From Pseudorhodobacter turbinis (GTDB taxonomy: Bacteria > Pseudomonadota > Alphaproteobacteria > Rhodobacterales > Rhodobacteraceae): 64,000 nucleotides of DNA. The notes beneath the pieces are model-generated. The model saw only the letters and a list, made by a program, of their open reading frames with translations, did no database searches and was not told the DNA's origin. Position 1 is the first letter of the stretch; each line of letters begins with the position of its first letter. The stretch is taken from contig NZ_CP039965.1 in NCBI RefSeq assembly GCF_005234135.1, positions 496,001-560,000 on the forward strand, in the 5' to 3' direction. Positions 1-15,978 of the stretch are shown here, in pieces. The position numbers and the translations under genes were made by a program.

Positions 1-609
1 TGATTGCAACGCTTGGAACATAGCCGGGCCGGACATCGCCTCGACAGCGACGCCAAGCTTGGACATCACTTCGGAGTTGAGGCCGGTTGTGCGGTACTTC
101 AGACCTTTCAGGTCATCCAGGGATTTGATTTCATCGCGGAACCAACCAGCCCACTGCGGACCGGAGTTGCCTGTCAGGAACGGCTTGAGGTTGAAGCGCG
201 CATACATTTCATCATAAAGCTCCTGCCCGCCGCCGTGCAGCATCCAGCCGTGCTGCTCAATCGCGGTCAGGCCCAAAGGCTGGCTACCGAACAGCAAGAT
301 ACCCTTGGATTTGCTGCCCCAATAGGCGGGAACGGCGTGGTAAATATCTGCCGTGCCCTCGCTTACTGCGTCAAATACGCCGGGGCCGGGAACGATCTCA
401 CCTGCGGCAAACAGCTCCACTTCGATGCGGCCACCGGACAGGGTGGTGATCCGGTCAGCAAGCGTTTGGGCGGCAACGCCGGGGCCGGGCAGGTTTTTGG
501 GCCATGCCGATACAAGGCGCCATTTGCGAACATCTTGCGCGATGGCAGGGCTGGCAAGGGCGGCTGCCCCCACGCCGGCAGCGGCGGTGATAAAATTACG
601 TCTTTTCAT
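1..609 (-). CDS. TRAP transporter substrate-binding protein, DctP family (3' part beyond window)
   Basis: Periplasmic solute receptor of a tripartite ATP-independent transporter. The reading frame starts at ATG 609 behind AAGGAGAG and runs off the left edge, so about 203 residues are visible. The N-terminus MKRRNFITAAAGVGAAALASP has two arginines, a hydrophobic stretch and an AIA cleavage site, consistent with Sec or Tat export. The visible part has DctP features: WPKNLPGPG near the start of the mature protein, PAYWGSKSKG, and GPQWAGWF with the family-typical substrate-site arginine region behind it. The membrane subunits (DctQ/DctM) are not visible and may lie to the left. It lies downstream of hutU on the same strand but 375 bp away, so it is not clearly in the hut operon. 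The substrate cannot be read from sequence. Confidence 0.85.
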   Translation of the reverse strand, partial: MKRRNFITAAAGVGAAALASPAIAQDVRKWRLVSAWPKNLPGPGVAAQTLADRITTLSGGRIEVELFAAGEIVPGPGVFDAVSEGTADIYHAVPAYWGSKSKGILLFGSQPLGLTAIEQHGWMLHGGGQELYDEMYARFNLKPFLTGNSGPQWAGWFRDEIKSLDDLKGLKYRTTGLNSEVMSKLGVAVEAMSGPAMFQALQS

Positions 610-984: not shown

Positions 985-2667
985 TTACTTCAAAATGCCC
1001 GGCAACGTAAGATCGTGTTCACGCGCACAATCGAGCGCGATATCATAGCCAGCGTCGGCATGCCGCATCACGCCGGTTGCCGGATCATTCCACAACACGT
1101 TGTTCAAACGGCGCGCTGCATCCTCGGTCCCATCGGCGACGATCACCATGCCCGAATGCTGCGAAAAGCCCATGCCAACGCCGCCACCGTGGTGCAAGCT
1201 GACCCAAGTCGCCCCCGAAGCCGTATTCAAGAGCGCATTCAAAAGCGGCCAATCCGACACCGCATCCGACCCGTCTTTCATCGATTCCGTCTCACGGTTG
1301 GGCGAGGCAACCGAACCGGAATCGAGATGGTCGCGGCCGATCACGATCGGGGCTTTCAATTCCCCCGAGGCCACCATCTCGTTGAATTTGAGGCCCGCTT
1401 TGTGGCGATCACCAAGCCCAATCCAGCAAATCCGCGCCGGCAGCCCTTGGAAATCGATACGGTCACGCGCCATATCCAGCCAGTTGTGCAGATGCTCGTT
1501 CTCGGGGAACAGCTCTTTCATCGCCTGATCGGTTTTGTAGATATCCTCAGGATCACCCGAAAGCGCGACCCAACGAAACGGCCCGATCCCTTTGCAGAAC
1601 AAAGGCCGGATATAGGCAGGCACAAAACCGGGGAAGGCAAAGGCGTTCTCAAGCCCCTCTTCCTGCGCAACCTGACGGATGTTGTTGCCGTAATCCAAGG
1701 TCGGCACGCCTGCATTCCAGAAATCAACCATCGCGGCGACATGGGCCTTCATGCTGGCACGGGCGGCTTTTTCCACGGCTTTCGGATCGGATTCCTGCTT
1801 GGCGCGCCATTCGGCCACGGACCATCCCAGCGGCAAATAACCATGCACCGGATCATGCGCGGATGTCTGGTCCGTTACCATATCAGGGCGCGGACCACCG
1901 GCCTTCATGCGGGCGTAAAGTTCAGGGAATACCTCTGCCGCGTTACCGATCAGCGCCACAGATTTCGCCTCACCGGCTTTGGTCCATTTGTCGATCAAGG
2001 CCAATGCCTCATCCAGCGTATGGGCCTTTTCGTCGCAATAGCGGGTGCGGATGCGGAAATCGGCGCGGGTCTCATCACATTCGACCGCCAAACAGCATGC
2101 GCCCGCCATCACTGCGGCCAGCGGCTGTGCGCCGCCCATACCGCCAAGACCCGCCGTCAGGATCCACCTACCTTTGAGGCTACCTTCATAGTGTTGGCGG
2201 CCAGCCTCGGCAAAGGTTTCAAATGTCCCTTGCACAATGCCTTGGGTGCCGATGTAGATCCACGATCCAGCTGTCATCTGGCCGTACATCGCCAGACCCT
2301 TCTTATCGAGTTCGTTAAAGTGGTCCCAAGTCGCCCAATGCGGCACAAGGTTGGAGTTGGCGATCAACACGCGCGGCGCATCCTTATGCGTCTGGAACAC
2401 GCCGACCGGCTTGCCCGATTGCACCAAAAGCGTTTGGTCATCGTTCAAATCGCGCAAAGAGGCGCAGATCTGGTCGAAATCTTCCCATGTGCGGGCGGCG
2501 CGGCCGATGCCGCCGTAGACCACCAGCTCATGCGGGTTTTCGGCAACATCGGGGTGCAGGTTGTTCATCAACATCCGCAAGGGGGCCTCGGTCAGCCAGC
2601 TTTTTGCGGTGATCTCGGTTCCGGTTGCGGGGTAGATGTCACGGGTGTTGTGGCGTGGGTTTGTCAT
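985..2667 (-). CDS. hutU: Urocanate hydratase (urocanase)
   Basis: Second step of histidine degradation: hydrates urocanate to 4-imidazolone-5-propionate using tightly bound NAD+, in the cytoplasm. The 560-residue protein has the expected urocanase length and family blocks: [12 protein letters not shown] near residue 45, [11 protein letters not shown] around residue 180, and [17 protein letters not shown] near the C-terminus. Two ATGs lie in tandem (2670 and 2667); GGAG sits 6 nt before the second, so I start there. A longer frame upstream overlaps the acyl-CoA dehydrogenase and is not homologous. It is the last gene of hutI-hutH-CoA transferase-acyl-CoA dehydrogenase-hutU, 13 bp behind its neighbour. 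Confidence 0.97.
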
Positions 2668-2680
2668 CATATTCTCCGAT

Positions 2681-3823
2681 TCAGGCCAGCAGGTGAGCGG
2701 CGATAATATTGCGTTGAATTTCAGAAGAGCCTTCATAGATGCGCATGATCCGCACATCGCGAGCATAGCGTTCCAGCGGGAAATCACGGGTAAAGCCGTA
2801 GCCGCCATGGATCTGGATCGCGCCATCGGTCACGCGCCCCGCCATCTCCGAGGCGTGAAGCTTGGCCATGCTGGACTGCATGGAAAAACGCGTGCCATCC
2901 TGGCGCAGGCGCGCCGCCTCCAGCGCGATCAATTCGGCGGCGCGCAGGTCCAGCGCCATATCGGCAAGCTGCCAACGGATGCCTTGCTTGGCGGCCAAGG
3001 GTTCGCCGCCGATGATGCGGGTCTTGGACCATTCGGTCGCAGCCGTCAGCGCGGCCGAGGCGATACCGATACACATGGCCGCCACTTCCAGCCGGCCATT
3101 ATCAAGCACCTTCATCGCGGTCTTGAAGCCGGACCCTTCCGCACCAAGCAGCACGCTTTCGGGCAGTTGGCAGTCAAAATCCAATTCCCAGACATGGCCG
3201 CCGCGCAGGCCCATGGTTTTCTCGGCGCGACCCGGTTGCAGGCCGGGGGTGTCTTTGTCCACCACAAAGGCCGAGATCCCGCGATGGGCAGCGGCCGGAT
3301 CGGTCACGGCAAAGACCACCAGAAAATCCGCCACGCCACCATTAGAGATAAAGCATTTGCGCCCCTTCAGATGCCAACCATCCGCGGTTTTCGTGGCCTT
3401 GGTGCGCATATCCGCCGGGTCAGAGCCAGCAAAGGGTTCCGTCAGCGCGAATGCGCCAAGGCGGTCCCCGGTCGCGGCATCGGGCAAATAGCGCGCGCGC
3501 GCCACGTCATCCCCGCCCAACAAAATCGAATCCGTCGCCAGATAATGCGCCGTCAGGGCAGACACCGTGGAGCCACAAGCCCCCGCAATCACCCCGACCG
3601 CCCGCAAAAGCGCCTGCGCCGAAATATCCGCCCCGCCCCAAGCCTCTGGCAGGTTCGCACCCATCATGCCGGTCTGCGCCAAGGCCCGCAGTTGGGCGTG
3701 GACAAATTCGCCGCTCTCATCGGTGGCATGGGCGTGGGGGGACAGCTCTTCGGCGGCAAAACGTTCAAGCTGCGTGATGAAGGCACGCTCGGCCTCGTCA
3801 AGCATATGGTACAAATCGGTCAT
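2681..3823 (-). CDS. Acyl-CoA dehydrogenase embedded in the hut operon
   Basis: FAD-dependent dehydrogenase that introduces an alpha,beta double bond into an acyl-CoA. The 380 residues have the standard three-part fold. LTEPFAGSD at about 127-135 is the FAD/substrate signature, and [10 protein letters not shown] holds the probable catalytic base Glu364. It is closest in character to short or branched-chain acyl-CoA dehydrogenases. The start ATG overlaps the upstream CoA transferase stop by 4 bp, so the two are translationally coupled. Its place between hutH and hutU suggests a substrate related to urocanate; imidazolepropionyl-CoA is my suggestion (inference). A short branched-chain acyl-CoA of unrelated metabolism is the alternative. 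Confidence 0.93.
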
Positions 3824-5007
3824 TCCGTCCTCACAATTCCGGCAGCGATCAAACCGCTGATTTGGTCTTCGGTCAGGCCCAACGAGGCCATAACCGCACG
3901 TGAACCACCGCCCAAAGCGGGGGCGCCACTGCTTGCAACCGGCTTTTCACCGTTGAACCGTATCGGCTGGCCGATAACCGGGGCCGTCCCAAGCCCGTGA
4001 TGCGGAATATCGGACACAAGCCCGCGCGCGATGGCATGGGGGCTGCTGGCGGCCTCGGCCATGGTCAGGATCGGTGCGGTTGGAATATGCGCCGCGCGCA
4101 ATCCCTCAACCGCGTGCGCAGTGGTCAACTTTCCCGTCCACGCCTCAATCAGCGCCTTGAGCACGGGTTCGTTTTGGGTGCGCGCCTCATCACTGGCAAA
4201 GCGCGGATCGCTTGCCGCCTCGGGCGCGCCAATCAGGTCACATAGTGCTGCGAACTGACGATCCCCCAATACGGCAATAATCGCGTGCCCGTCCGATGTG
4301 GCATAGGCCCCGAATGGCGTTGATAGCGGGTGACGGTTGCCCACCCGTTCCACGGCTGACTTCGCATAGAAATGAATGGCATGGCTGGTCGGCAGCAAGG
4401 AAAACAGCGCATCAAACATCGCCACATCAAGACTTGCCCCTTGGCCGGTTTGCGCGCGCCCCACCAAGGCCGCCGCAATACCCCAAGCCGCATAGAGGCC
4501 CGCCATCAGATCCCCCAGCGCCTCGCCCACTTTCAAGGGTGCGCCGCCCTCTTCGCCATTGGCCTCCATCAGGCCCGACATCGCCTGCACCACGATGTCA
4601 TAAGCGGGAAGGTCACTGTACGGCCCATCCTGACCAAAGCCCGAGATGGAGCAATAGATCAGCGCCGGATTATCCTTGCGCAACGCCTCGACACCAAGGC
4701 CCAGCTTGGCGGCGACACCGGGGCGGAAGTTTTCCACCACCACATCGCAGGTTGCCGCAAGCTGACGCGCAACGGCCTTACCCTCATCCGCCTTGAGGTC
4801 CAGCACCACCGAGGATTTGCCCCGATTGGTCAGCGCAAAAAGTGCGGAATGCCCGTCCACAAAGGGGCCGATATGGCGGTAATCATCGCCCTGCGGTGGC
4901 TCTATCTTAATAACCTCGGCCCCCAGATCGGCCATAAGGGCGGTGCAAAACGGGCCGGCCAGAACGCGGGTCAGATCAAGGACACGGATGCCTTGCAGCG
5001 GTTTCAT
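3820..5007 (-). CDS. CaiB/BaiF-type (family III) CoA transferase
   Basis: Transfers CoA between carboxylic acids through an aspartyl-CoA anhydride. The 395-residue length is typical. Family features are the N-terminal [17 protein letters not shown] block, [26 protein letters not shown], and [11 protein letters not shown], in which Asp166 is the expected catalytic residue. It overlaps hutH upstream and the acyl-CoA dehydrogenase downstream by 4 bp each, so all three are co-translated. The donor and acceptor are unknown. With a dehydrogenase next to it, it probably activates or releases the same acid that the dehydrogenase oxidises. Confidence 0.93.
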
Positions 5008-6518
5008 AACGCCAGTTCCACCCCGGCCGCATTTGCCAAGACGCCTGCGCGGACCAATGCCGATGCCGCCTCAATATCCGGCGCGAGATAGCGATCTTCG
5101 GCCAAAACGGGCGAGACTTCGCGCAGGGCCGCAACCGCCGCCTGCAGCGGACCAGAGGTTACCAGCGGGGCCCGAAACCCGATGCCTTGCGCCGCGCAAA
5201 GCGCCTCAACCCCCAAAATCACCGACAGGTTCGCATTCATCCGCCCCAAACGCCGCGCACCATGGGCAGCCATGGAAACATGGTCTTCCTGATTGGCCGA
5301 GGTCGGCGTGCTATCGGTCGAGCAAGGGTTCGCGAGGTGCTTGTTCTCGCTCATCAAAGCGGCGGTTGTCACCTCTGCGATCATGAAACCGGAGTTAAGG
5401 CCGGGCGCCGGAGTCAGGAACGGCGGCAGGTCATGGGACAGGGTCGGATCAACCATCAAAGCCACACGACGCTGCCCGATAGCCCCGATTTCAGCCAGGG
5501 CAAGCGCGATAATATCTGCTGCAAAAGCAACAGGTTCTGCGTGGAAGTTACCACCGGATATGATGCCCGCCGAGACAACCAGCGGGTTGTCGGTCACGGC
5601 ATTCGCCTCGATCTCTAGTGTGGTGGCGGCAAAGCGCAACAGGTCCACAGCGGCACCGACAACCTGCGGCACACAGCGAATGCAGTAAGGGTCTTGTACG
5701 CGGGTATCGCCCTCACGGTGGCTGTCGCGGATCACCGATCCCTCCATCACCGTGCGCAACGCGTGGGCCACGTCGATCTGGCCACGATGGCCGCGCAAGC
5801 TGTGGATTTCGGGCTGCAAAGGCGCTGTGGATCCCATGATCGCATCGGTCGACATTGCCGCTGTCGCCACAGAGGCCCGCGCATTCTGCCAGCCTTCAAA
5901 CAGACCGACCAACGCCAGCGCGGTTGAAAACTGTGTGCCGTTGATCAGGCCAAGCCCCTCTTTCGGGCCAAGCACCAAGGGGGTTATCCCCGCCTGCGCC
6001 AACGCCTTATCCGAGGCCATGCGCACGCCTTGATAGACCGCCTCACCCGCGCCGATCATCGTGGCCGCCATATGCGCCAATGGTGCTAGATCACCCGACG
6101 CCCCGACAGAGCCTTGGGCCGGAATAACGGGAATCACAGCATGTGCCAGGAGGTTTTCGATCTGTTCAATCACGGCCCAGCGAACCCCCGAGGCCCCACG
6201 CCCCAGCGACAGCAATTTCAGCGCCATCATCAGCCGGGTGGTTGCCTCATCCAGCGGCTCGCCTACGCCGCAGCAATGCGACAAGATCAGATTGCGTTGC
6301 AGGGTCTCGGTATCTTCCGGCGCGATCTTGACGCTGGCGAGCTTGCCAAAGCCGGTGTTCACACCGTAAACGGCCACCGTGCCCGCTGCGGCGGCGGCAA
6401 CCTGATCACAAGCGGCCTCAACCGCCACACGCGCGCTTGGGTCCAGCGTTGCGATCCCGTCACCGCGCCAAAGGGTTTCAAGATTGTCCAGCGTGGTCGC
6501 GCCCGGTGTCAGCTTCAT
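5004..6518 (-). CDS. hutH: Histidine ammonia-lyase
   Basis: First step of histidine degradation, L-histidine to urocanate plus ammonia. The 504-residue protein carries the Ala-Ser-Gly triad at 140-142 within [11 protein letters not shown], which cyclises to the MIO cofactor. YGVNTGFG near residue 51 and the [14 protein letters not shown] block are also family hallmarks. The start ATG overlaps the hutI stop by 4 bp and the end overlaps the CoA transferase by 4 bp. Length and motifs are complete with no anomalies. Confidence 0.97.
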
Positions 6519-7711
6519 TCTTTTCCCCCAAAAATCCGCTGGTGCAGCGGGTTAAATCCAAAACGGTAGGCAAGCTCGGCCGGTGTCTCGACATTCCAGA
6601 TCGCAAGATCAGCCCGCATCCCCGGCGCGATCACACCAGTATCCGTCAGACCCAAAGCGCGGGCGGCATGTTCGGTAACACCGCGCAGCGCCTCTTCGGG
6701 CGTCATGCGAAACAGGGTGCAGCCCATGTTCATCGCCAGCAAAAGCGAGGTCATCGGCGAGGTGCCCGGGTTGCAATCCGTCGCAAGCGCCATCGGTACG
6801 CCATGGGCGCGGAAGGCCGCGACCGGCGGCATCTGTGTTTCGCGGATTGCATAAAAGGCACCGGGCAGCAAAACCGCCACCGTACCGCTTGTCGCCAACA
6901 GTTTGGCATCTGCCTCGGTGGCGTATTCCACGTGGTCGACCGACATCGCGCCATATTTGGCCGCCAAGGCACAGCCGCCGATATTCGAGAGCTGCTCGGC
7001 ATGCAGCTTTACAGGCAACCCCAGTTCACGCGCCACATCAAAAACGCGCGATATCTGACTGGTATTAAACGCGATTCCCTCGCAGAAACCATCCACCGCA
7101 TCGACCAACCCCTCGGCATGGGCCGCGCGCAAGGTGGGGATGCAAACCTCATCAATATAGGCATCATCGCGGCCCTTATATTCGGCAGGCGTGGCATGGG
7201 CGCCCAGAAAACTGGTGCGGATACGCACAGGACGCAGATCCCCCAAACGCCGTGCCGCGCGCAGCATCCGCAGCTCCACCTCCTGATCAAGACCGTAGCC
7301 GGACTTCACCTCAACACAAGAAACCCCTTCTCCGATCAAGGTATCCAGACGGGGCAACGCGGATGCGACAAGGCTGTCCTCATCCGCCTTGCGGGTGGCC
7401 GTGACGGTAGAGACGATGCCGCCACCGGCGCGCGCAACCTCTTCATAGCTGGCCCCTTCGAGCCGCATCTCGAATTCCCGCGCGCGGTGGCCACCATGAA
7501 CGATATGGGTATGACAATCGATGAAAGCAGGGGTCAGCAGCCGCCCCTCAAGGTCAAGCACTGACCATGAAGCATAGTCACTTGGCAAATCGGCTTGCGG
7601 CCCGACCCAAAGGATCCGCCCCGCCTCCACCACCACGGCCCCTTGCAGCATGAAAGGCCCCGTACCTGCCACGCCGCCCCCAAGGATAACTGTTTGCGCC
7701 CCGATTTCCAT
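6515..7711 (-). CDS. hutI: Imidazolonepropionase
   Basis: Third step of the pathway: opens imidazolone propionate to N-formimidoyl-L-glutamate. This amidohydrolase-fold metalloenzyme of 398 residues has metal ligands in [11 protein letters not shown], the substrate region VKSGYGL, and the later ligand motifs KLHAEQLSN and [10 protein letters not shown]. It is the promoter-proximal gene of the minus-strand operon, and its start faces hutF across 69 bp. GAGGGGAATCAAG precedes the ATG at 7711. Confidence 0.97.
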
Positions 7712-7739: not shown

Positions 7740-7749
7740 TGTACATACA
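7740..7749. promoter_or_regulatory. Probable HutC operator between hutI and hutF
   Basis: The 10-mer TGTACATACA matches the TGTA-N2-TACA half-site pattern known for HutC-type GntR repressors. It sits in the 69-bp gap between the divergent hutI and hutF starts, and hutC lies directly downstream of hutF. Both transcripts could therefore be controlled from this one site, with urocanate as likely inducer by analogy with other HutC proteins. Confidence 0.55.
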
Positions 7750-7780: not shown

Positions 7781-9139
7781 ATGTCGATCATCTATGCAGA
7801 GCAGGCGCTTTTACCTGATGGCTGGGCGCAAGACGTCGCAATCACCCATTCCGGCGGGCGGATCACAGCGGTTGAGGCAGGTGCCTCCCCACAAGGCATG
7901 CGCGTTGGCACTTTGCTTCCGGCGCCCGTCAATCTGCATTCCCACGCGTTTCAACGTGCTATGGCAGGGCTGACGGAGCGGCGCGGCCCCGATCCGCGCG
8001 ACAGCTTCTGGACATGGCGGCAGTTGATGTACCGCTTCCTCGACCGGCTTACGCCCGAGGATGTGGAGGCGATCAGCGCCTTTGTACAAATGGAAATGGC
8101 CGAGGCAGGCTACGGCGCCGTGGCAGAGTTCCACTATCTCCACCACGCCCCCGGCGGCACCGCCTATGACAACCGCGCCGAGATGGCGGCACGGGTTGCG
8201 GCAGCCTCGGCACGGACGGGGCTGGGGCTGACCATGCTGCCGGTGCTTTATCAGTTTGGCGGCTGTGATGGCCGTGCGCTTGGCCCCGGCCAGAACCGCT
8301 TTGGCAATACGCCCGAAGAATTCGTGGACCTGCTAGAGGGGGCCGCTGCGGCCATCAAGACACTGCCCGCCGATACGGTTTTAGGTGTCGCTCCTCATTC
8401 GCTGCGCGCGGTCTCCGAGGAGGCGCTTGCCCTCGCCGCCACTCTGCGCCCCGATGCGCCGATCCATATGCATCTGGCCGAACAAACCGCCGAAGTAGAC
8501 GAGGTCTTGACCCATCGTGGCGCCCGTCCGACCGAATGGTTGCTTGCCAATGCCGATGTGGATTCGCGCTGGTGCCTGATCCACTGCACACAGATGGAGC
8601 CCCACGAAACCAAGGGCTTGGCCGCGACGGGAGCCGTTGCTGGGTTGTGCCCCATTACGGAATCCTCATTGGGTGACGGGATTTTCGACGGGGTCGCCTA
8701 TGCGCAGGCAGGCGGTCGCTGGGGTATCGGATCGGATAGCAACATACGGATTTCGCTGTCTGAGGAATTGCGCACGCTCGATTACAGCCAGCGCCTGCGC
8801 GACCGTTCGCGCGCGGCCCTTGCCACGGCAGATAAATCCACCGGTCGGGTGCTGTTTGAAACCGCGGCAAAAGGCGGCGCACAGGCAGGCGGGCGCGATG
8901 CGGGCACAATCGAGGTTGGCAAGCTGGCCGATCTGGTGGCGCTTGATGCCTCTGGTCCGGATATGGCGGGGCGTCAGGGCGACACCACGCTCGACGCCTT
9001 TATCTTTGCGGGCGATGACCGTATGGTAACGGACCTGTGGTCGGCAGGCCGCCATCTGGTCACCGGCGGGCGGCACCATGACCACGATGCCATCACCGCG
9101 GCCTACACGGCCTGCGTCACCAAACTACGGGACCTATGA
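7781..9139 (+). CDS. hutF: Formimidoylglutamate deiminase
   Basis: Converts N-formimidoyl-glutamate to N-formyl-glutamate plus ammonia, the route that needs a separate deformylase (HutG) to finish. The 452-residue amidohydrolase has NLHSHAFQRAMAG (metal ligands and the HutF-specific FQRA), HMHLAEQ, WCLIHCTQM and IGSDSNIRISLSEELR. I start at ATG 7781 (MSIIYAEQALL); earlier in-frame codons read through the operator and hutI start and are not conserved. The stop overlaps the hutC start by 4 bp. Confidence 0.95.
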   Translation: MSIIYAEQALLPDGWAQDVAITHSGGRITAVEAGASPQGMRVGTLLPAPVNLHSHAFQRAMAGLTERRGPDPRDSFWTWRQLMYRFLDRLTPEDVEAISAFVQMEMAEAGYGAVAEFHYLHHAPGGTAYDNRAEMAARVAAASARTGLGLTMLPVLYQFGGCDGRALGPGQNRFGNTPEEFVDLLEGAAAAIKTLPADTVLGVAPHSLRAVSEEALALAATLRPDAPIHMHLAEQTAEVDEVLTHRGARPTEWLLANADVDSRWCLIHCTQMEPHETKGLAATGAVAGLCPITESSLGDGIFDGVAYAQAGGRWGIGSDSNIRISLSEELRTLDYSQRLRDRSRAALATADKSTGRVLFETAAKGGAQAGGRDAGTIEVGKLADLVALDASGPDMAGRQGDTTLDAFIFAGDDRMVTDLWSAGRHLVTGGRHHDHDAITAAYTACVTKLRDL

Positions 9140-9828
9140 CAAGCACCACATGGCAATCTGTTCAAGCGGAGGCGTTGCGCCGCATCCGGTCGCGCGAATG
9201 GCCCCCCGGCGGCCAAATCCCGCATGAGGCAGATCTGGCCGAGGAGCTGGGCTGTTCGCGTGGCACCGTAAACCGGGCCCTGCGGGACTTGGCCGAGGCG
9301 GGGTTGCTGGAACGTCGCCGCAAGGCGGGCACGCGTGTGCCGTTGAACCCCGTGCGCAAGGCCACGCTGGAAATCCCCATCATCCGGCAAGACGTAGAGG
9401 GACGCGGGCAAACCTACGGCTACCGCTTGCTGGCAACACGCGAGGCCGCACCCCCGCCCGAGATTTGCGAACGGCTTTCGCTGAAACCCGATACCGCGAT
9501 GATTCACGTGCTTGCACTGCATCTGGCCGATGATCTGCCCTTTTGCCTGGAGGATCGCTGGATCAACCTGCGTGTGGTGCCCGAGATCGCCCAAACCGAC
9601 CTAACCAAGATCAGCGCCAATGAGTGGCTGGTTCAAAACGCCGCTTTTTCCGCCGGCAGCTTTGCCTTTGGCGCGATTGCCGCACCCGAGGCCACGGCAA
9701 AATGGCTTGATTGCCCCATCGGCGCGCCGCTTTTTACGCTTGACCGGACAACATGGGCCGCCGCCTTGCCGATCACCTCGGTGCGGCTGTGCTATATTCC
9801 CGGCTACCAAATGCGCGCAGAAATCTGA
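9136..9828 (+). CDS. hutC: HutC, GntR-family transcriptional repressor of histidine utilisation
   Basis: 230 residues: an N-terminal winged helix-turn-helix (about 8-65, with LAEELGCSRGTVNRALRDLAEAGL as the recognition region) and a C-terminal UTRA ligand-binding domain (about 75-225) of the HutC/FarR class. It overlaps hutF by 4 bp (ATGA), so repressor and HutF are co-translated. The likely operator is TGTACATACA at 7740, which would make the system autoregulatory. Ligand assignment to urocanate is by analogy. Confidence 0.93.
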   Translation: MTSTTWQSVQAEALRRIRSREWPPGGQIPHEADLAEELGCSRGTVNRALRDLAEAGLLERRRKAGTRVPLNPVRKATLEIPIIRQDVEGRGQTYGYRLLATREAAPPPEICERLSLKPDTAMIHVLALHLADDLPFCLEDRWINLRVVPEIAQTDLTKISANEWLVQNAAFSAGSFAFGAIAAPEATAKWLDCPIGAPLFTLDRTTWAAALPITSVRLCYIPGYQMRAEI

Positions 9829-10987: not shown

Positions 10988-12193
10988 GTGTCAAAATCAG
11001 ATACGCTTCGCTTTCAAATAAGAACGACATCAAATGGGCACCAACACCGACATCTCCTGATTGATAGGTTTACACAATCATCAAACCTCTTAGCTGGCCT
11101 CTACGAGTCCTATCTCTCTGCATCCTCATTCTCGACTGCTACTATCAAGAAGTCTTTAAGTCATGTAGCGGCATTGCTGACTTGGGATGCTCAAGAAAAG
11201 AACTTAGCGACAGCACACCTGATGCGCGGACAACCTCTCACAGAGCCACAGATCAGACAGTTCAAGCGATGGCTTGAGGCTCGTGCAAAAGGCAACAAAC
11301 AATCAATCGCGGCCACTCAGCAACAAACCGTCAACGAGATAATCCGTGGCGCGGCCGCCTTTGAAGACTGGTGCTTACGGTACTCTCTCACGCGACATGG
11401 ACGTCACAGCCGATTGATAGATGTTCGCACGGTACAGCAGGAATTCTGGAAGGATGCTCAGGGTAATGTACCTCATCAAGAATTCGCTGAGGATTTCAAT
11501 GACGAGGAAATACTGGAAATCGAACAATATTTGCGTTCTCTCGCTTTCGACAGCAGATGGAGCAGAACCAGCAGAAGCGACTTCCGGAACTACGTTATGT
11601 GGCGAATGGCGATAGAATACGGGCTCAGGATCGGCGAAATGCTTGCCTTTCGAACCATCGACCTTCCAACTCGATCTCAAGATTATATAAAAGTAGTCCG
11701 GATTGAGGAACGCGATGATCCGCCTGATCCGCGCGACGAATATGCTCCTCGTCCAAAAACCTTGTCTCGCGATCTCGGCACTTACTTTTCAAACAGCAGT
11801 TTTCCGGACCTTTTTGCTAAGTATGTTGCGGAGTACCGCTGGGTAGAGGTCTTCAACGCCAAGCGAGGCACCAAGCGCCGCAAATCAACCTTTGCCCATT
11901 CGTACCTGTTTATTTCCGGTAGCGGTGCACCTCTTGCACGCAGCACAGCCGAATACATGGCTGGTAGAATCGCCGGCGAGCTTGGGATCGAGTTTCATTG
12001 GCACAAATGTCGACACTCATTTTTCAATCGTATCTATGCGGCTTCAGACTTGATCCAAAACCCGAGTGACCGTGAGCGAGCACGTCAACAGATGCAATAT
12101 TGGGGCGGCTGGTCTTCACCCGAGAGCCTGCAAATCTACACCAATACCGCCCGTCGCGACGCTGGTCGCCGTGGTAATCCCCCCCGAAAGTAA
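10988..12193 (+). CDS. Tyrosine recombinase / site-specific integrase
   Basis: 401-residue phage-type integrase. The catalytic pattern is visible: Arg214 in EYGLRIGEM, the H-x-x-R pair in HKCRH (His339, Arg342), GGWS near 373-376, and the likely nucleophile Tyr384 in LQIYTNT. The N-terminal about 180 residues include a SAM-like core-binding region. The start is GTG 10988 behind AAAGGG. Base composition and codon use are less GC-rich than in the core genes. It lies just inside the left edge of the island and may have inserted it. The final residues run up to an IS3 remnant, so the natural C-terminus could be slightly altered. Confidence 0.85.
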   Translation: MSKSDTLRFQIRTTSNGHQHRHLLIDRFTQSSNLLAGLYESYLSASSFSTATIKKSLSHVAALLTWDAQEKNLATAHLMRGQPLTEPQIRQFKRWLEARAKGNKQSIAATQQQTVNEIIRGAAAFEDWCLRYSLTRHGRHSRLIDVRTVQQEFWKDAQGNVPHQEFAEDFNDEEILEIEQYLRSLAFDSRWSRTSRSDFRNYVMWRMAIEYGLRIGEMLAFRTIDLPTRSQDYIKVVRIEERDDPPDPRDEYAPRPKTLSRDLGTYFSNSSFPDLFAKYVAEYRWVEVFNAKRGTKRRKSTFAHSYLFISGSGAPLARSTAEYMAGRIAGELGIEFHWHKCRHSFFNRIYAASDLIQNPSDRERARQQMQYWGGWSSPESLQIYTNTARRDAGRRGNPPRK

Positions 12194-15123: not shown

Positions 15124-15978
15124 TCATGCTGCTTGGTTCATCTGTATTGGGTCAAAGTATGCGTCGTCTGGTGTCCGTTTATCAAGCGCGGTGTGCGGCC
15201 GCTCGGCGTTGTAGAATTCGAGCCATTCGTCGATGACGCGTTTGGCTTGGAACCCGTCCTGCAATTCGTGCAGGTAGACAGCCTCCTGTTTCAGTGAACG
15301 CCACAGCCTTTCGATGAAGATGTTGTCGAGATAACGTCCTCGGCCATCCATTGATATTTTGATCTTGGCGTCGGTCAGGGTGGTGATCCAGGCCGTCCCT
15401 GTGAACTGCGATCCTTGGTCGGTATTCATTATCTCGGGTTTGCCGTATTCGGCGATGGCCTCCTTCAAAGCCTCGACACAAAAGCTGGCATCCAACGTAT
15501 TCGAGAGCCGCCACGCCAGCACCTTACGCGTCGCCCAATCCATGATTGCCACCAGATAAAGGAATCCGCGCCGGACCGGAATATAGGTGATATCGCTGCA
15601 CCAAACTTGGTTTGGGCGCGTGATTGGCAGTTTCCTCAGCAGGTATGGATAGATCGGGTGCTGGGGATGCTTCTTGCTGGTGTTTGGGCCCTTATAGATC
15701 GCCTGCAACCCCATAACGCCCATCAAGCGGCGCACGCGGTGGCGACCAGCATGAAACCCGTTTCGCGGCAGGTAGGCTGCGATCTGGCGGCTGCCAAAGA
15801 ACGGGTATTTCATGAACACCCGATCGATTTCATTCATCAGCTTCAGGGTCTCGGCATTCACACCGACCGGCGCATAATACAACGATGACCGGCTGATCTT
15901 CAGAAGTTTACATTGCTTCGTCAGGCTCAGGTCAGTGCGATCAGCGTTGATCATAGCCTTGCGTTCAGACGGGCTCAT
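15124..15978 (-). CDS. IS3-family transposase OrfB (DDE integrase)
   Basis: 284 residues with an HTH_21 region, then an rve integrase core. The acidic triad is visible as WCSDITYI (first D), MNTDQGSQFTG (second D) and the later ERLWRSLKQEAVYLHE region with the catalytic E. It is normally made as a frameshift fusion with OrfA. It catalyses copy-out/paste-in transposition. The length is complete. Confidence 0.93.
   Translation of the reverse strand: MSPSERKAMINADRTDLSLTKQCKLLKISRSSLYYAPVGVNAETLKLMNEIDRVFMKYPFFGSRQIAAYLPRNGFHAGRHRVRRLMGVMGLQAIYKGPNTSKKHPQHPIYPYLLRKLPITRPNQVWCSDITYIPVRRGFLYLVAIMDWATRKVLAWRLSNTLDASFCVEALKEAIAEYGKPEIMNTDQGSQFTGTAWITTLTDAKIKISMDGRGRYLDNIFIERLWRSLKQEAVYLHELQDGFQAKRVIDEWLEFYNAERPHTALDKRTPDDAYFDPIQMNQAA

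Follow-up and report, generated by a model that had tools for sequence, protein, structure and literature searches.

A CoA transferase and acyl-CoA dehydrogenase pair in histidine utilization operons: a proposed CoA cycle for imidazole propionate

The histidine utilization (hut) operon of Pseudorhodobacter turbinis (contig NZ_CP039965.1) carries a family III CoA transferase and an acyl-CoA dehydrogenase between hutH and hutU. With a probability of roughly 0.7, this pair works as a self-priming CoA cycle through which imidazole propionate (dihydrourocanate) enters the Hut pathway. The pair probably turns this saturated by-product back to urocanate for use as food. The sequences show gene content, gene order, intact catalytic residues, and a link of the pair to hut genes, to repressors of HutC type, to urocanase, and to importers; from these we infer the substrate, direction, CoA donor, and electron acceptor. 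A preliminary description had proposed that the pair activates imidazole propionate, oxidizes it to urocanyl-CoA, and then releases urocanate for HutU. Genomic linkage in several bacterial orders and at least five gene layouts speaks for that proposal, and a separate release step is not needed. Of the readings considered, it appears to be the best, refined in one point: the transferase and the dehydrogenase would close the CoA cycle by themselves.

The hut operon and the two CoA enzymes

The window, i.e., the whole 64,000-nucleotide stretch of DNA that was analysed, contains five hut genes (hutI, hutH, hutU, hutF, and hutC) that all score over their NCBIfam cut-offs (Table 1). A 4-bp overlap is present at each of three junctions: hutI/hutH, hutH/transferase, and transferase/dehydrogenase. 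The hutU gene follows 13 bp behind the dehydrogenase with the start at 2667, or 10 bp behind it with the start at 2670. This confirms the chained arrangement first described, where the 13-bp spacing was given. The hutU frame that reaches 2826 is a mechanical open reading frame only. The operon combines hutH, hutU, and hutI with a hutC gene and a putative operator-like site, a palindrome scored against what we take to be the HutC operator consensus.

Table 1. Features of the hut region of the window, with strand and supporting match
Feature	Position	Strand	Match or remark
hutI, imidazolonepropionase	6515..7711	-	TIGR01224, 451.6 bits (cut-off 298)
hutH, histidine ammonia-lyase	5004..6518	-	TIGR01225, 649.5 bits (cut-off 539)
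Family III CoA transferase, 395 aa; proposed urocanyl-CoA:imidazole propionate CoA transferase	3820..5007	-	PF02515, 436.6 bits
Acyl-CoA dehydrogenase, 380 aa; proposed imidazolepropionyl-CoA dehydrogenase	2681..3823	-	PF02770/PF02771/PF00441
hutU, urocanate hydratase	985..2667 (start 2667 or 2670)	-	TIGR01228, 942.9 bits (cut-off 375)
hutF, formimidoylglutamate deiminase, divergent; alternative ATG 7739	7781..9139	+	TIGR02022, 552.8 bits (cut-off 413)
hutC, repressor of histidine utilisation	9136..9828	+	TIGR02018, 262.4 bits (cut-off 220)
HutC-operator-like palindrome TGTACATACA between hutI and hutF	7740..7749	.	1 mismatch to consensus TGTATATACA
DctP (TRAP solute receptor), start only, cut by window edge	1..609	-	PF03480

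HutG (formylglutamate deformylase) is absent from the window cluster, and the hutH/transferase overlap leaves no space for it. The last step of the Hut pathway must therefore fall to a gene elsewhere. The genome has two matches to the HutG family (PF05013), both on contig C1; the window is on C2. Beyond hutC, a phage-integrase-family protein (PF00589) is encoded 1.2 kb away (window 10988-12193), and a transposase-type integrase-core protein (PF00665) 5.3 kb away (window 15124-15978).

The TRAP genes begin 375 bp behind hutU. The neighbouring TRAP receptor of the preliminary description is real; the window edge cuts it (609 to 1), and DctP, DctQ, and DctM (PF03480, PF04290, and PF06808) run on outside. 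Its closest structural matches are 2hzk and receptors related to it, one of which is a keto-acid-binding protein. This likeness fits a monocarboxylic acid as ligand and proves nothing.

The transferase has a full-length CoA_transf_3 domain (PF02515 over residues 4-366). Residue D166, which we take to be the catalytic Asp of family III CoA transferases, is the same in all 12 aligned sequences, that of the window among them. The N, middle, and C domains of the dehydrogenase are all over the Pfam cut-off. Its Glu364 lies in IYEGSSEIQ (the YEG motif), is presumably the catalytic Glu of acyl-CoA dehydrogenases, and is kept in all 90 dehydrogenases of the module, that of the window among them.

Among the NCBIfam models listed for the two enzymes (24 for the dehydrogenase and 7 for the transferase), there is none whose cut-off either enzyme reaches, and the two protein groups are without any curated NCBIfam model that names them. 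Homology scores single out no one known acyl-CoA family. The closest solved structures are generic: acyl-CoA dehydrogenases 5lnx and 5ol2 for the dehydrogenase, and YfdE (4hl6) for the transferase. The glutarate reading was rejected for its scores of 323 bits against a cut-off of 750 for the transferase (NF052585) and 207 against 470 for the dehydrogenase (glutaryl-CoA dehydrogenase, NF045552). The carnitine reading fell in the same manner, with 141 against 413 bits (NF002914) and 163 against 540 (NF002885), as did the acrylate reading, with 359 against 640 bits for acryloyl-CoA reductase AcrC. The isomerisation of cis-urocanate and the dehydration of imidazole-lactate were set aside since a dehydrogenase fits neither.

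In a tree, the 90 module dehydrogenases split from 12 other acyl-CoA dehydrogenases with support 0.84, a separation that holds against these 12 outgroup sequences and not against all acyl-CoA dehydrogenases. The 12 LysR-type dehydrogenases are one subclade (support 0.906). The seven dehydrogenases of free-standing HutC-type loci are scattered in a group of 25, of which the other 18 are embedded in hut operons. Residues typical of the 90 module sequences relative to the outgroup include D98, D241, and E246, which are candidates for mutagenesis only.

Distribution and genomic context of the pair

A scan with one genome per species gave 414 relatives, of which the best 80 were kept as named loci; the counts therefore cover the closest relatives. 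Carriers include Pseudorhodobacter aquimaris (98% identity), Gemmobacter, Rhodovulum, Paracoccus denitrificans, many other Paracoccus, and Roseovarius, as well as Neorhizobium, Phyllobacterium, Sinorhizobium, Mesorhizobium, Shinella, and Acidocella. The gene immediately 5' of the dehydrogenase is that of the transferase in 78 of these 80 loci. In the remaining two, the locus begins 183 bp before the dehydrogenase (L051) or the maximal frames overlap and were missed by the distance measure (L101).

HutU is immediately 3' of the pair in 67 of these best 80 loci, with the remnant in L095 counted. The 13 others are two contig ends (L057 and L103), seven free-standing HutC-linked loci, and four of LysR type (L091, L101, L117, and L120). 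Upstream, hutH is found in 66 of the 80. The survey called for in the preliminary description bears out its gene order: hutH upstream and hutU directly downstream flank the pair in 64 of the best 80 of 414 relatives. Judged by the hutH-to-transferase distance, 21 of the 66 loci with hutH have the direct junction seen in the window, and 45 have a gap of 150 bp to 1.5 kb. The gap content was tested with family PF05013 in sampled genomes, and six of them hold a HutG-family protein there. The hut-embedded arrangement is general and not a local accident.

In a sample of the order, 19 of 196 genomes have a dehydrogenase match at E 1e-80 or better. Twelve of these matches (own genome included) are at 58-100% identity and seven at 40-44%. 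No CoA transferase or hut neighbour was found at the eight places with 40-44% matches. Among the 12 pairs, eight are inside a hut operon, two (L030 and L031) lie near hut genes and have DctPQM directly behind them, and two (L032 and L033) are LysR-linked, with no hut genes in the surrounding 9 kb or so. Both of the other genus members in the sample have hutU and no such dehydrogenase match, so the pair is accessory.

The pair also tracks urocanase. A sample of the phylum had nine carriers among 398 genomes at E 1e-125, and hutU is present in 9/9 of them compared to 147/398 genomes overall (Fisher p 1.1e-4). In the order sample, hutU is present in 11/12 carriers and 92/184 non-carriers (p 0.0056). 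These p values are guides only, as the samples contain related genomes and some of the association follows trivially from embedded pairs; in the order sample, 8/12 pairs sit within a hut operon. Genomes with unusual pair loci offer a less trivial test: all 13 that were searched have hutU, which in L065 and L101 is at the locus itself. In the other 11, the pair locus lacks an intact hutU, and the gene is found elsewhere in the genome in 11/11 cases, with that of L091 in two pieces on two contigs. The exception to this linkage is G162, whose single hutU-like place holds hut fragments only. Four genomes (G197, G200, G203, and G204) have a second, lower-scoring hutU-like gene (668-689 bits), which may be of the thiourocanate-hydratase type.

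Seven Rhizobiales loci (L080, L087, L096, L102, L105, L110, and L116) have a divergent HutC-type gene, the pair, and an ABC importer, with no hutH, hutU, or hutI nearby; frames were listed for six of the seven. Four of their regulators were scored, and each is over the HutC cut-off of 220 bits, at 235-245. With up to two mismatches allowed, a HutC-like site is present in 6/7 intergenic gaps of these loci and in 1.35% of 2000 random 200-bp stretches from the 80 named loci; since the gaps are 157-484 bp long, part of this excess is due to length. The same scan found a site in only 20/59 hutF-hutI gaps. In locus L095 (Paracoccus alkanivorans), the pair stands between a short piece of hutI and a remnant of hutU that is cut mid-gene; the ABC importer follows, and an intact hutU is present elsewhere. 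It looks like a transition between the embedded and free-standing layouts.

More distant loci vary further. In L145 (G270, another class), hutC, hutU, transferase, dehydrogenase, and an NCS1-type permease follow in order, with no hutH at the locus and a second hutU elsewhere in the genome. A urocanase without histidase is as predicted for a substrate that enters at urocanate. Behind the permease is an old-yellow-enzyme-type oxidoreductase (PF00724, L145:6206-7312). In L146 (G397), hutU-hutH-hutC and ABC importer genes are near a LysR-transferase-dehydrogenase set, and in L142 (G240) the pair is within a hut cluster. In L143 and L144, the pair is accompanied by a LysR gene, and no hut gene is nearby. 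Upstream of the LysR gene in L144 are genes for an enoyl-CoA hydratase, for another family III CoA transferase (38%), and for one subunit of a further CoA transferase; thus, beta-oxidation genes are not absent at that locus. At the hutU-like place of G162 (L147), fragments of hutU, hutF, and hutC lie in a span of about 1.5 kb and look like a decayed hut cluster; the LysR-type pair is kept.

Several other genes were observed at these loci. A VanA-type Rieske oxygenase recurs adjoining the pair or HutC/HutH (L030:13789-14913, L091:7919-8956, and L142:2229-3281). This family includes demethylases, and the oxygenase could possibly be a demethylase for methylated imidazole compounds. L142 has two luciferase-like monooxygenases (PF00296, L142:10484-13296) between the pair and hutU. 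L030 has a D-serine-dehydratase-like PLP enzyme (PF01168/PF14031, L030:15932-17071) between HutC and hutU, and L101, from a Rhodospirillales MAG, has a phytanoyl-CoA-dioxygenase-like gene (L101:6004-6843) between the dehydrogenase and hutU.

Importers accompany the pair in 43/80 named loci (best 80 of 414 relatives). Downstream are TRAP genes in 8 of the 80 and ABC importer genes in 35, never both; the other 37 have neither. Some of the 37 are on short contigs, and 22 have more than 6 kb of flank. The earlier idea of TRAP import gains support where DctPQM directly follows the pair (L030 and L031). In 6 of 17 importer-less loci inspected (L046, L053, L060, L074, L075, and L078), the next frame behind hutU has MHYAPG or MHFAPG at its start or close to it; that of L053, the sole one tested, is a flavin-reductase-like protein (PF01613).

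The receptors (SBPs) of the linked ABC importers were compared at the amino-binding Asp, which we take to be the usual residue at this position. The Asp is missing in 39/39 pair-linked SBPs, where MAFFT places a gap and HMMER aligns Ser. One unrelated SBP (27% identical) had been dropped from 40, and four come from outside the named set, with at least three repeating named ones. The control took 24 loci of two carrier genomes. Two of them turned out to be the pair-linked SBPs, one of which could not be read, and eight more gave no readable sequence in the frame used. The Asp is missing in 8/14 readable other SBPs as well, and its absence was dropped as support for the substrate of the linked importers.

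The proposed cycle and its alternatives

Imidazole propionate would be taken up via the TRAP or ABC importer. The transferase would then convert urocanyl-CoA and imidazole propionate to urocanate and imidazolepropionyl-CoA. The FAD dehydrogenase would oxidize imidazolepropionyl-CoA to urocanyl-CoA, with electrons passing to ETF and then to the respiratory chain. After priming from a common acyl-CoA, the net reaction would be imidazole propionate to urocanate, with CoA catalytic and no ATP used. Urocanate would then be processed by HutU, HutI, and HutF. For an acyl-CoA dehydrogenase that makes urocanyl-CoA, the simplest starting point would be the CoA ester of imidazole propionate, and in a respiring cell the pair is likely to run oxidatively.

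Because CoA would be catalytic, a ligase, thioesterase, hydratase, and thiolase would not be needed; the same transferase would release urocanate by exchange, so that no thioesterase is required. None of these four enzymes recurs beside the pair, L144 excepted, among neighbours viewed by eye and in family searches on 20 neighbours of non-embedded loci. ETF matches in the P. turbinis genome form two pairs, neither of which is beside the operon. Points against the cycle are the hydratase near the pair in L144 and the LysR-type pair of G162, which has hut remnants only. The 22 loci with long flanks and no importer, the low site count in hutF-hutI gaps (20/59), and the homology scores that single out no acyl-CoA family also count against it. 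These last points apply to importers, control, and substrate in turn.

L144 and G162 also belong to the case for a different substrate. The same cycle could act on a modified imidazole acid, e.g., N-methylated imidazole propionate, or on another arylpropionate, at least in the LysR-controlled subclade. The 12 LysR-type loci group as one subclade, the VanA-type Rieske oxygenase is near the pair or HutC in three hut-linked or LysR-type loci (L030, L091, and L142), G162 lacks an intact hutU, and the neighbours in L144 are of beta-oxidation type. The window, however, belongs to the hut-embedded group, its next gene is urocanase, and no oxygenase is present in its operon. A modified substrate is unlikely.

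Histidine ends in glutamate, and the operon could for this reason alone host a pair that handles an unrelated acyl-CoA, such as glutarate via a succinate-glutarate CoA transferase and glutaryl-CoA dehydrogenase. Succinate-glutarate CoA transferase is indeed the best NCBIfam match of the transferase, but the 323 bits are far under the cut-off, and the dehydrogenase also scores well below its own. Moreover, the pair keeps urocanase or HutC-type genes even apart from other hut genes, which makes an unrelated acyl-CoA quite improbable.

The pair could also run backwards and serve as an electron sink: it would activate urocanate and reduce it to imidazole propionate, as urocanate reductase does, but by way of CoA. 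In principle, the transferase can work in both directions, and the best NCBIfam score of the dehydrogenase is to AcrC, a reductase, though below the cut-off. In respiring cells, the favourable course is oxidation of the acyl-CoA, with electrons passing through ETF to quinone. All four ETF matches are elsewhere and none adjoins the pair, and importers accompany it in more than half of the named loci (43/80). This direction is very unlikely. Hitch-hiking in the operon with no functional link hardly comes into consideration: operons can carry unrelated genes, but at least five layouts keep a hut, HutC, or HutU link in separate bacterial groups.

Related systems and significance

The proposed oxidation of imidazole propionate has counterparts in known systems. 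CaiB/CaiA of enteric carnitine/crotonobetaine metabolism also join a family III transferase to an enzyme of acyl-CoA-dehydrogenase fold and recycle CoA between substrate and product. The window pair are not members of these families, judging by the scores given above; the substrate differs, and the pair is proposed to be oxidative. FldA/AcdA of the clostridial Stickland arylpropionate system perform the same chemistry on CoA-bound aryl propionate and acrylate, a likeness in chemistry. This system runs reductively in anaerobes and includes a dehydratase, whereas the window pair would run oxidatively.

The Hut pathway with the HutF/HutG branch (Pseudomonas type) has hutI, hutH, hutU, hutF, and hutC in common with the window. 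The standard pathway has no CoA ester; the window operon has a built-in CoA side branch and no hutG. Degradation of imidazolylpropionate by Pseudomonas testosteroni, which begins with the same acid as the proposed pair, was reportedly described by Coote and Hassall in 1973. Imidazolepropionate is also said, by Schlesinger and Magasanik in 1965, to be a nonmetabolizable inducer. The preliminary description knew of no pathway of this kind; as physiology, degradation of the acid has been in print since 1973. In the open-licence literature, no genes for imidazole propionate breakdown were found in titles and abstract starts among the matches listed, and urocanyl-CoA and imidazolepropionyl-CoA do not occur in the literature searched.

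Urocanate reductase UrdA interconverts the same two acids as the proposed pair. According to excerpts of one source, UrdA forms imidazole propionate (PMC13320830); the proposed pair would remove it via CoA esters. The same excerpts name enzymes that make imidazole propionate and name no genes for its breakdown (PMC13320830). Gut bacteria make the acid from histidine, and it is associated with cardiometabolic disease, as stated in parts of two sources (PMC13320830, PMC7676231). Excerpts of a HutC regulon study list transporters and hut genes, with no CoA transferase or dehydrogenase named (PMC5343134).

It is reasonably likely that the pair represents a widespread CoA-dependent imidazole propionate oxidation module of Proteobacteria, made up of importer, transferase, dehydrogenase, and HutC- or LysR-type control, that makes imidazole propionate a growth substrate. 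If so, a function would be given to two protein groups that lack a curated NCBIfam name, and a reversible link between two histidine by-products would be closed. The old imidazolylpropionate physiology may gain its genes. The two-gene CoA cycle would be a microbial sink for imidazole propionate, a metabolite linked to human diabetes.
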